Source of the DNA: Hyphomicrobiales bacterium
GTDB taxonomy: Bacteria; Pseudomonadota; Alphaproteobacteria; Rhizobiales; Aestuariivirgaceae
Reading direction: 5' to 3'
Assembly: GCA_027051995.1 (NCBI GenBank)
Contig: JALUFY010000237.1
Coordinates: 1 to 11,150, forward strand
Length of the DNA: 11,150 bases
Made by a program: the position numbers and the translations under genes. How positions within the stretch are numbered: position 1 is the first letter of the stretch; each line of letters begins with the position of its first letter. Shown piece by piece: positions 2,641 through 5,744 of this stretch. The notes beneath the pieces are model-generated. The model had not been told where the DNA came from and ran no database searches. It saw only the letters and a program-made list of their open reading frames with translations.

Positions 2641-2988
2641 GAACAATTTGATTTTACTGTATTATTCCCCTTGCAGGATTTTGCTATCCGCTCACTTGAA
2701 AGAAAGAACAGAGACACATCGCAGACTATGCCGGAAATATGCTGTTTCCCGCAGTCAGGCCGGTTGACGTTCCACGGACGCCGCCTGAACCGGTGCGGCA
2801 ATAACGCGGCTTGCGCGGCGTTTGGCGAATCCCGCAAATGGCCTACAAGAATCTCTCACGGCGAAGTGAAGACAAGCGCGCCCGAGTTGAATGCCGGTGT
2901 TCGATTTTGCCTTTATCATGATCTGCGTCATGAAAAACACGGCGCTCCGGCGCTGCCAATACGCAACATCAGTGGAGGATACACCCCT

Positions 2989-3429
2989 ATGCGCAACTTG
3001 AAAAAATACTGGATCTCGACCGCCGCCGCCATGCCCCTGGCGCTTGGAATGGCCGGCGCGGGCACGATGCTGGCGGTCAGCGGCTTCTCCGCGACGCCGG
3101 CGGCGGCCCAGACCGCCAATCCGTGCAACCCCTGCAACCCTTGCGCAGCCAAAAAGATGATGAAGAAGGCTAACCCGTGCAATCCCTGCAATCCCTGCGC
3201 GGCCAGGAAGATGATGAAGAAGGCCAATCCGTGCAACCCCTGCAACCCCTGCGCGGCCAGGAAGATGATGAAGAAGGCCAATCCGTGCAACCCCTGCAAC
3301 CCCTGCGCGGCCAGGAAGATGATGAAGAAGGCCAACCCGTGCAATCCCTGCAACCCCTGCGCGGCCAAAAAGATGATGAAGAAGGCCAACCCGTGCAATC
3401 CCTGCGCCGCTAAAAAAAAAGTAAAGTAG
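2989..3429 (+). CDS. Exported Asn-Pro-Cys repeat protein, 5' half of a split P460 haem protein
   Basis: This frame gives 146 residues. ATG 2989 follows GGAGG (2974-2978) by 10 bases and starts a signal peptide with basic residues 2-6, a hydrophobic stretch 11-33 and likely cleavage near AAAQ (38-41). From residue 44 the protein is a tandem array of the 18-residue unit [18 protein letters not shown] (some copies AAR instead of AAK), five full copies and a shortened sixth. It then ends KKKVK-stop directly after a run of nine A's. The same NPC/AAK repeat continues in the -1 frame immediately downstream, so this frame is almost certainly the 5' part of a longer gene ending at 4064. Dense cysteines in the periplasm suggest metal binding or disulfide chemistry (inference). 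Alone it would be a small Cys-rich secreted peptide. Confidence 0.75.
3118..3411 (+). repeat. 54-base tandem repeat array, five copies plus a partial
   Basis: Full copies start at 3118, 3172, 3226, 3280 and 3334, each exactly 54 bases. A shortened copy at 3388-3411 has only two NPC triplets. The copies are nearly identical and differ mostly at third codon positions and AAA/AGG for one Lys/Arg. The exact unit length and near identity suggest recent expansion or gene conversion. The array is coding, so it is not a CRISPR. Confidence 0.9.
3412..3429 (+). other. A9 slippery tract and frame junction
   Basis: Nine A's (3412-3420) are read as three AAA codons, followed by GTA AAG and a TAG stop at 3427-3429. 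Moving back one base after the third AAA gives AGT AAA GTA GCG and then continues the NPC/AAK repeat to the P460 domain. The last seven A's fit the A-AAA-AAA form of a -1 ribosomal slip site, and A9 is also long enough for RNA polymerase slippage. A 7-bp hairpin (3446-3452 with 3464-3470) lies 25 bases downstream, farther than the usual spacing for a stimulatory structure. A simple indel or sequencing error gives the same picture. Confidence 0.6.
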
Positions 3430-4064
3430 CGCCCTGCAATCCCTGCGCCGCGAAAAACCCTTGCGCGGCGAAGAAAAACCCGTGCAACCCGTGCGCGGCC
3501 AAAAATCCGTGTTCCGCCTCGGCCAACCCTTGCAATCCGTGCGGCGCGGCCAGCAAGAAAAAGACCGTCTCGAACGCCGAAGCCAAGGCGCTTTACGAGG
3601 CCATGAAGGCGGACTGGCCGCGCGCCTACCGGAGCGGCGAGCACTGGGCGGCGGGCAAGGACTGGCCGAAGTGGAAAAGCTTTGTCACCGGCCCCTACAT
3701 CGCCGATACGCACGGGGGGCGTTACGTGGTCAACCTGGCCAACAAGATCGCCGCGAAGGTTTATGGCCAGTTCGGCAAGCTGAAGTCCATGCCCCCCGGC
3801 GGCACCATCGTCAAGCCGTCCTTCACCGTGGGCATGGATGGCAAGGCCAGGCCCGGCCCGCTGTTCATCATGGAGAAGATGACCAGGGGCTGGAACGCGG
3901 AAACCCATGACTGGCGCTACGCCATGATCCTGCCGGGCGGCAAGACCTATGGCGTCACCAAAGGGGTGAACTCCAGGGGCATGGGCTTCTGTCAGGAATG
4001 CCACGCGGGCGCGGCGGAAAACGACATGCTGTTTTTCGCCGATGAAGAGTTCCGCACGAAGTAG
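3420..4064 (+). CDS. Cytochrome P460-type haem domain, 3' half of the split gene
   Basis: The start given is the frame junction, not an initiation codon. The first ATG in this frame is 3603, which would give 153 residues without a signal peptide. Read from the junction, the protein first adds more NPC/AAK repeats (to about 3558) and then the P460 domain. Visible family features are [11 protein letters not shown] (37-47 counted from ATG 3603), [11 protein letters not shown] (64-74), [14 protein letters not shown] (85-98), DWRYAMI (103-109), the CxxCH haem c site CQECH (130-134; bases 3990-4004) and a [10 protein letters not shown] tail. P460/cytochrome c'-beta proteins are periplasmic. Some oxidise hydroxylamine and others bind NO, and the choice cannot be made here because the haem-lysine cross-link cannot be judged. 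Export is required for haem attachment, so the upstream signal peptide must be joined to this part. The fused product is 358 residues. Confidence 0.8.
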
Positions 4065-4088: not shown

Positions 4089-4116
4089 AACCCGGGCTGG
4101 CGCGCCCGGGTTTTTT
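4089..4116 (+). terminator. Strong intrinsic terminator after the P460 gene
   Basis: AACCCGGGC (4089-4097) pairs perfectly with GCCCGGGTT (4104-4112) around a 6-base loop, and T's run from 4111 to 4116. It lies 24 bases after the stop at 4064. Confidence 0.92.
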
Positions 4117-4164: not shown

Positions 4165-4659
4165 ATGAAAACATTTTCCGCCCTGCTTGTTCTGTTCGCT
4201 CTTTCCGCCCCGCCCGCGCTGGCGCGGGATGTGCTGCGCGGCCCGGCCGAAGCCGTTGATGGTTCGCATCTGCGCATCATGGAGCGCACCGTCCGGCTGG
4301 CCGGCATCGCCGCGCCGGGCCTTCGCACGCCCTGTCTGTGGAAGGGCAAAACCCCGCGTGATTGCGGGCGCATGGCGCGCGCGGCGGTTTCCGACCTGAC
4401 GGCGGGCGCGCGGGTGATCTGCCGCGAGGATTCGTCCCTTGGCGGCTGGCGCTGTCTTTCGGATGGATACGACATTTCCGAAGGATTGATTCACGCCGGA
4501 TGGGCCCGCCCCGTCAAGGGCGCGCCGGAAGAATGGTTCCAGCAGGAACGGCGGGCGCGGCGCAAGGGGCTGATGCTGTGGCGCGCCACGACCCTGGATG
4601 GCGAAAGCTTCATGGAGCATCTGGCCGCGTTGAAAACATCGGGAGCGGCAAGGCCCTGA
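4165..4659 (+). CDS. Exported SNase-like protein lacking catalytic residues
   Basis: This 164-residue protein has a Sec signal peptide (cleavage after ALA, residue 20) and a staphylococcal-nuclease OB-fold domain. The domain shows VDGSHLRIM (31-39), VRLAGIAAP (43-51), the GARVIC strand (81-86), DISEGLIHAGWA (103-114) and E-R-R-A-R-R-K-G-L-M-L-W (128-139). Compared with the canonical DGD, RLxGIDAPE and the later catalytic Arg, the positions equivalent to Asp21, Asp40, Glu43 and Arg87 are Ser34, Ala49, Gly52 and Leu92 by my alignment. Only the first Arg (Arg44) is kept. Nuclease activity is therefore unlikely. Four cysteines (57, 67, 86, 97) could form disulfides. ATG 4165 has no Shine-Dalgarno sequence, and a TTG at 4150 is an in-frame alternative. 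The stop overlaps the next start by one base (TGATG). Confidence 0.82.
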   Translation: MKTFSALLVLFALSAPPALARDVLRGPAEAVDGSHLRIMERTVRLAGIAAPGLRTPCLWKGKTPRDCGRMARAAVSDLTAGARVICREDSSLGGWRCLSDGYDISEGLIHAGWARPVKGAPEEWFQQERRARRKGLMLWRATTLDGESFMEHLAALKTSGAARP

Positions 4660-5744
4660 TGCGGCGGATCGTCTTCGACATATCCGGACACGGGCTGGGC
4701 CACCTTGCGCAGATCGCGCCGCTCATCAGGCTTTTGCGCCAGCGGGTGGATGGCGCGCGCATCATCATCCGCTCGCGCCATGCACGCGGCGTTGTCGCGG
4801 AATTCGCCGGAACGCCCTTCACCAGCGCGCCGCCGCCGCCCGATCCGGAGCTCGTCATGCTGTCGCCGGTGCGGGTGGATGCCGAAAGAACCCTCGCAGC
4901 CTATGTGGCGCTGCATGAAGATTATTCCGCCGCCGTGGCGCGGGAGGCGGAGAAACTGGCGGCCCTGAAAGCCGATGTGCTGATCAGCGACATCGGCTAC
5001 ACGGGACTTGCGGCGGCGGCTGAAGCGGGTATCACGGCCTATGCCCTGTGTTCGCTGCACTGGGAGGAAACGCTGGCCGCCTACCTGCCCGGCAACGGGC
5101 AGACCCGCGCCATCAGGAAGCAGATTCTGGACAGCTACAACAGCGCCCGCGCCTTCTTTCTCGCCGCGCCCAGACGGCATATCGGCGGGCTGGTCAACGT
5201 GCGGCCCATCGCCCCTCTGGTGCGCGGAACGGGGCGGGACAGAAGCGCCGCGATCCGCCGCCTTGCCGGCGCGGGGCCGAAGGTGAAGCTGGGGCTGATC
5301 AGCTTCGGCGGTATTGCCGGCGAGGCGGCGAAAGTGCGCATCCCGGATGATCCGGGCTGGTTGTGGATCGTGCGTGACGGCCTGCCGCTCGCGGGAGCCT
5401 CCGGGAATACGGCGCCATTGAGCGCCCTTGGCGGCATGGACATGCTCGATCTGTATGCCTCCTGCGATCTGGTGCTTACCAAGACCGGCTATGGAACCTT
5501 CACCGAATGCGCGGCCAGCGGCGCGCCGTGCCTGTATCTGCCCCGCCCGGACTGGCCGGAGGCGCGGGATCTGGAAACCTGGATGCGGGCGAAGGGATAC
5601 GGACTGCCCGTCAGCGCCGGTCTGCTGGCATCCGGGACATGGAAAGATCAGGCTTCCCGTCTGAGACGGCGGCCCGCCGGAAAAGGCATCTTTCGCGGGG
5701 CCAAAGAGGCGGCGGAGATGATCCTGGCGGATCTGGACTGGTGA
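4659..5744 (+). CDS. GT-B fold glycosyltransferase (GT28/GT1-like)
   Basis: This 361-residue protein is a predicted cytoplasmic nucleotide-sugar glycosyltransferase. The N-terminal Rossmann domain opens with FDISGHGLGHLAQ (6-18), the Gly/His-rich acceptor-side loop seen in GT28-like enzymes and in the N-terminal domain of sugar kinases such as arabinokinase. ADVLISDIGYTG (105-116) follows. The C-terminal domain has ISFGG (214-218) and the donor-binding segment KTGYGTFTECAASGAPCLYL (285-304), with PDWPEARDLETWM after it. The start ATG overlaps the stop of the SNase-like gene, implying coupling. A GGGAG at 4641-4645 is 13 bases upstream, rather far for a ribosome binding site. Sugar and acceptor are unknown. 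Its position just before the hopanoid genes allows, but does not show, a role in lipid glycosylation. Confidence 0.8.
   Translation: MRRIVFDISGHGLGHLAQIAPLIRLLRQRVDGARIIIRSRHARGVVAEFAGTPFTSAPPPPDPELVMLSPVRVDAERTLAAYVALHEDYSAAVAREAEKLAALKADVLISDIGYTGLAAAAEAGITAYALCSLHWEETLAAYLPGNGQTRAIRKQILDSYNSARAFFLAAPRRHIGGLVNVRPIAPLVRGTGRDRSAAIRRLAGAGPKVKLGLISFGGIAGEAAKVRIPDDPGWLWIVRDGLPLAGASGNTAPLSALGGMDMLDLYASCDLVLTKTGYGTFTECAASGAPCLYLPRPDWPEARDLETWMRAKGYGLPVSAGLLASGTWKDQASRLRRRPAGKGIFRGAKEAAEMILADLDW

Follow-up and report, generated by a model that had tools for sequence, protein, structure and literature searches.

Does the gene for a secreted repeat protein with a cytochrome P460 domain, interrupted in this contig at a run of nine As, stand as a broken reading frame, or does it use the run to make two exported products? 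Productive frameshifting is mostly known from mobile elements and viruses, dnaX being the textbook chromosomal case in which a poly-A tract yields two proteins. An earlier note, made from the letters of this DNA, had offered three explanations: a slippery site maintained to give two products, a phase-variable switch, or a homopolymer sequencing error. Recurrence in a clade of three species, stop codons clustered behind the tract and purifying selection on the haem half make the first of these the best supported, leave some weight to the second and render the third unlikely.

The window, that is the whole stretch of 11,150 nucleotides analysed, is a complete contig (C237) of a draft genome, here G000, of 2.14 Mb in 457 contigs and 88.6% complete. 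As first noticed, the half with the signal peptide and Cys repeats (ORF1, with 11 CNPC motifs) and the haem half are in different frames, the haem frame being -1 relative to ORF1. The NPC/AAK repeat does cross the junction: behind the A9 tract it goes on in the -1 frame as S-K-V-A-P-C-N-P-C and leads into the P460 domain (Table 1). The length of 358 residues computed for a restored single chain is arithmetically correct.

Table 1. Features of the interrupted gene, and short genes preceding related loci.
Feature	Positions	Strand	Basis
GGAGG, ribosome-binding-like site, 10 bases 5' of the ATG	2974..2978	+	by eye
ORF1 (ATG to TAG), default frame, 146 aa with 17 Cys: signal peptide followed by the CNPC repeat array	2989..3429	+	ORF listing; signal peptide by eye
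Repeat array, 54-nt spacing, unit ends [KR]KMMKKA	3110..3405	+	repeat analysis
Candidate A9 slip site, 0 frame AAA AAA AAA GTA AAG TAG, includes A_AAA_AAA	3412..3420	+	
TAA closing the third frame immediately 3' of the tract	3422..3424	+	
TAG closing the default frame, two codons 3' of the tract	3427..3429	+	
Haem frame (-1), 216 codons: remainder of the repeat array, then the cytochrome P460 domain	3414..4064	+	
Cytochrome P460 domain, Pfam PF16694	3567..4061	+	profile match
CxxCH haem-binding motif, CQECH	3990..4004	+	
Terminator-like hairpin, then T6	4091..4116	+	by eye
Short secreted NPC genes directly upstream of NPC-P460 genes: loci L006, L011, L014, L017, L021, L038, L106, L005, L009, L074	L006: 209-757		

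The haem frame has no ATG before 3603, a position just inside the P460 domain, as the earlier note stated, and GTG and TTG are likewise absent before that point. Because no start codon precedes 3603, the haem half would, by its sequence, be whole and exported only when joined to ORF1; an internal start or translational coupling serving a free-standing haem gene was rejected on the same observation. The domain scores 32.5 bits against PF16694 (cut-off 27). In a weak alignment to 7ead (E 0.2), the Lys at codon 3813 occupies the cross-link position, the Glu at codon 3873 the distal-carboxylate position and a His the position of the capping residue, and CQECH, the Lys and the Glu are invariant in a 4-row alignment. 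A structure model from that alignment (pLDDT 35.5) was useless for the fold. A Lys cross-link and a distal Glu characterize active cytochromes P460 as compiled in Table 2 of PMC11928373, and we infer hydroxylamine or NO chemistry for the haem half.

The A9 tract, picked out at first reading as the longest homopolymer, is the sole run of at least seven in the window, where about 0.03 A/T-runs of at least nine are expected from first-order composition. In each of the three assemblies that carry the shifted junction described below, A/T-runs of at least nine number two, the junction tract being one. The remark that the array spells its lysines mostly AAG also holds (15 AAG vs 4 AAA in the 5' half); eight other genes of the window have 57 AAG vs 25 AAA. 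Both the rarity of A9 in these genomes and the preference for AAG support a slip site.

Elsewhere in the window, DUF6969 and FGE-sulfatase-domain genes lie upstream (783-2365), positions 26-574 encode a secreted protein in which a Gly/Pro linker connects two YARHG domains, and the repeat tool returned no inverted repeat near 2433-2640, where one had been suspected by eye. DUF6969 is also found near the NPC gene in G003, G005, G007, G008 and G010, and short NPC genes sit beside DUF6969-like genes in other alphaproteobacterial records.

The gene is present in nine of the 11 genomes of the genus and readable across the junction in eight, G010 being left out of the junction count with an array divided between two contig ends. 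Comparison of tract length in relatives, which the earlier note had recommended, revealed the same -1 junction and stop at A10 in G001 and at A9 in G006, hence in three of the eight readable genes with G000 included. The junction of G001, whose contig begins within the array so that the signal peptide lies outside the sequence seen, reads C-A10-GTAAATCC (0 frame CAA AAA AAA AAG TAA), and that of G006 reads GCG-A9-GCGAACTGA. G003, G004, G005 and G008 have a single open frame, and the frame of G007 is uninterrupted from the signal peptide up to the end of the contig, which falls within the domain. Runs of at least eight As are absent from four of these five open genes as fetched. The exception, G003, has an A8 tract in frame at the corresponding position; the bases behind it are GTGAAGTAACACC vs GTAAAGTAGCGCC in G000, 10 of 13 being identical, and the G003 gene may already yield some short product. 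The G003 tract is located at 1581-1588 of the reversed locus L013, where both other frames stop immediately.

A dxs tree of nine genus members (G005 and G007 gave no dxs) separates G000, G001 and G006 from the rest by a branch with 97/97 support, and the junction is present in all three readable members of this clade, a total of three genes against the GeneTack criterion of at least five fs-genes. On the P460 tree, too short to settle whether the origin was single, the shifted three need two changes, and its four open genes make up one side of a branch at 84/82. The frame junction is a real, clade-wide poly-A feature. Uninterrupted homologs without an A tract, which had been named as one finding that would remove the recoding idea, do exist outside the clade, in the form of the four tractless genus genes. 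The slip-site idea survives them because the open species fall outside the clade on the dxs tree and G003 keeps an in-frame A8 of the same design.

Stop codons are crowded behind the tracts. Each of the four tract carriers closes both non-haem frames after 0-3 sense codons, (2,0), (0,3), (2,3) and (2,0), with the default frame ending 2, 0 and 2 codons past the tract in the three shifted species. By itself a default-frame stop is weak evidence, given that a +1-frame stop occurs within 2 codons at 14% of genus array positions and, in six genus genes classed as intact, within 3 codons after 10 of 24 KK pairs; closure of two frames is the stronger test. Two-frame stops within 5 codons are found at 15 of 1,045 codon positions of the genus arrays, nine of them at tracts and the other six in two tractless pockets, in G000 and G001. 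Outside the genus, six loci show two-frame stops at 20 of 1,261 codon positions, tractless and near the array end, and the existence of such tractless pockets in both settings counts against a slip site. A null of synonymous recoding with the window's codon usage gave 0.0002, 0.14, 0.23 and 0.024 for the four carriers (about 1e-4 by Fisher's method), values that serve as a guide only, the sites being related, the codon usage being that of G000, and G000 and G003 carrying most of the signal.

Selection on the haem domain provides a further line of evidence. Between shifted genes omega is 0.26-0.28 at dS 0.65-1.21 (NG86, 164 codons), and between open genes it is 0.25-0.40 by the same method. The haem half of the shifted genes is under the same purifying selection as that of intact genes. 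Had the haem half been silent, drift would be expected, except where the shifts were very recent.

The locus is probably best read as one gene with a maintained, programmed poly-A slip site like that of dnaX, here in a gene family new to such sites. Decoding of the default frame would yield a short exported Cys-repeat (CNPC) peptide ending two codons past the tract, and a slip on the tract, either by RNA polymerase altering the A count of the transcript or by a -1 ribosomal slip, would yield the same exported array fused to the cytochrome P460 haem domain. Slippage, its rate and the two products are predictions from this arrangement. We lean towards RNA polymerase on four grounds: a tract of 9-10 As, stops that close both non-haem frames immediately, the occurrence of both Lys tRNAs in the genus, and a downstream region in which no consistent stimulator was detected; a ribosomal shift at A_AAA_AAA may act instead. 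A pattern search that can miss some tRNA genes recovered both tRNA-Lys UUU and CUU from G003 and G006, and a single one of them from each of G000, G001 and G010. RNA structure downstream of the three shifted junctions gave no consistent signal, with z of -1.2/-1.7, -0.8/0.0 and -1.5/-2.3 for 100-/61-nt stretches.

What is reported elsewhere on poly-A runs bears on this proposal. Selection against A/T runs becomes apparent at a length of nine in many bacterial genomes, according to PMC1088944, and the sections of PMC5009743 on slippage state that runs of nine slip efficiently in vivo and associate the use of transcriptional slippage by Thermus with its two Lys tRNAs. In the E. coli reporter assays described in PMC3711429, an A9 cassette of another gene, magnesium chelatase, shifted at 40%; among the candidate clusters tested there, only 4 of 20 exceeded 10%, a proportion that counts against a slip site here. 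Against it also stand the missing consistent RNA structure downstream, the small number of shifted genes, three in one genus of which five members manage with an open frame and in which a search revealed no separate short gene, and the state of the gene elsewhere: among the matches listed, all 23 readable NPC-P460 loci outside the genus have a single open frame spanning the array and the haem motif. These loci are best matches, at most 30 per retrieval, from 69 family genomes, a sample of 397 order genomes and one named-genome scan; G011, G018, G091 and G105 did not enter the count, their contigs ending in the array or next to it.

Among the rival explanations, phase variation retains some weight and seems unlikely overall. 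Replication slippage would change the length of the A tract and turn the haem protein on and off, the assemblies having caught the off length. Such a switch would suit a long A tract within the coding region of an exported protein, and, with one assembly per species, tract carriers that divide into three off, all in the same frame, and one on (G003). That all three are off by the same offset speaks weakly against it, the chance being 2/27 if the three frames are equally likely, and the stops in both other frames would have to be incidental.

Distinctly less probable is a tolerated defect, in which the tract arose by mutation, slippage supplies enough haem protein and the short product has no role. 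Defects tolerated through slippage are known in Buchnera and Blochmannia, as the pertinent section of PMC5009743 recounts; five relatives have one open frame, and a separate short NPC gene was not found in this genus, both as a defect would have it. The normal purifying selection on the haem half, the -1 offset common to all three clade members despite differing tract lengths, the stop pockets, and a genome that is not AT-rich and writes Lys mostly as AAG all count against this explanation.

A homopolymer error of sequencing or assembly in three draft genomes (457, about 530 and about 240 contigs) whose true genes are continuous is the least probable explanation: three shifts of the same sign are what systematic undercalling would produce, and an A9 in G000:C68 and an A10 in G008:C45 are also at -1 offsets, but the shifted carriers form a clade, the genes around both of these other tracts are broken elsewhere too, no such junction accompanies any of the 32 exact A8 tracts of G000, G001, G006 and G008 (by eye in ORF listings), and A9 is in frame in ftsZ-like (G002), methylase-like (G009) and Mu-like (G008:C212) genes, named by eye. 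Genome-wide undercalling, suggested by both A9 runs of G000 lying at -1, was rejected, the second run marking a Mu-like gene junction with a further break away from any tract. The survey took in 17 of the 20 A/T sites of at least nine in the genus, three of the five in G003 being left out. Two of these A9 runs lie at the overlap of two Mu-like head genes (by eye), at 145-153 of L156 (G000:C68) and at 1501-1509 of L059 (G008:C212); the second Mu-like gene of L156 has no start before A9 and shows a further break. The A10 at 1501-1510 of L044 (G008:C45) marks a -1 junction in a ParB-like gene (by eye) with more stops behind it, which looks decayed.

If a slip site is accepted, the loci outside the genus offer a tentative view of what the short product is for. 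In nine of the 22 non-genus NPC-P460 loci scanned (best matches), a gene upstream encodes a short NPC peptide that, judged by eye, has a signal peptide of its own, and L074, with a short gene at 4486-4761, adds a tenth tandem pair. Some of these tandem peptides end ...AAKKKSAN or ...AAKKKS, and the predicted short products end ...AAKKKVK (G000), ...AAQKKK (G001) and ...AAKKKAN (G006). It is conceivable, if rather less likely than the slip site itself, that one slipping gene replaced a two-gene module and that its default flipped between long (G003, A8) and short (G000, G001 and G006), setting the ratio of two exported products. That five genus members have only the long form argues against one gene doing the work of two. 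In the records L076 (4412-5624), L078 (4806-5969), L077 and L080, NPC arrays also flank other c-type cytochromes, and short NPC peptide genes occur next to DUF6969-like genes.

If a programmed slip site operates here, an exported haem enzyme, probably of nitrogen chemistry, would join the genes known for poly-A slippage; judged by title, none of the papers found in listings of open-licence PMC papers is about such a gene. Routine annotation would label its haem half as a startless broken gene. The genus further offers a natural series, from no tract through in-frame A8 to shifted A9 and shifted A10, in which the gain and the flip of such a switch could be followed.

The gene can be compared with several known systems. 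Its haem half resembles cytochrome P460 of the Nitrosomonas and Methylococcus type in CxxCH, cross-link Lys and distal Glu, by the 7ead alignment (E 0.2) and the residues tabulated in PMC11928373, and differs in the long CNPC array in front and in a capping position held by His, not Phe or Arg. It likewise recalls the tandem pairs of related genera, in which a short secreted NPC peptide accompanies an NPC-P460 protein; those pairs are two genes with two signal peptides, whereas here one gene contains a frame junction. The magnesium chelatase fs-genes, a GeneTack cluster in the collection of PMC3711429, also shift by -1 at A-runs and have fused relatives elsewhere, but theirs is by annotation a cytoplasmic enzyme, while the short product here would be a repeat peptide with a signal peptide.

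The closest likeness is to dnaX. The Chlorobium-type fs-genes (A7-A10, short product in the zero frame) have two ORFs, a -1 shift and a poly-A length that varies between species, and the part of PMC3711429 concerned with them counts 17 genes in 12 genera; the present case comprises three species in a single genus and concerns an exported haem protein. Thermus thermophilus dnaX, in which transcriptional slippage acts on an A9 with the long product in frame, shares a coding poly-A tract, short and long products with a common N-terminus, near stops in the two frames other than that of the long product, and two Lys tRNAs, as set out in the Thermus sections of PMC5009743, and the in-frame A8 of G003 has the Thermus layout. 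Unlike Thermus dnaX, the present gene has another function, its slippage is predicted where that of Thermus was measured, and the template of G000, G001 and G006 encodes the short product. Both dnaX layouts, the long default of Thermus and the short default of Chlorobium, appear to occur within this one genus.
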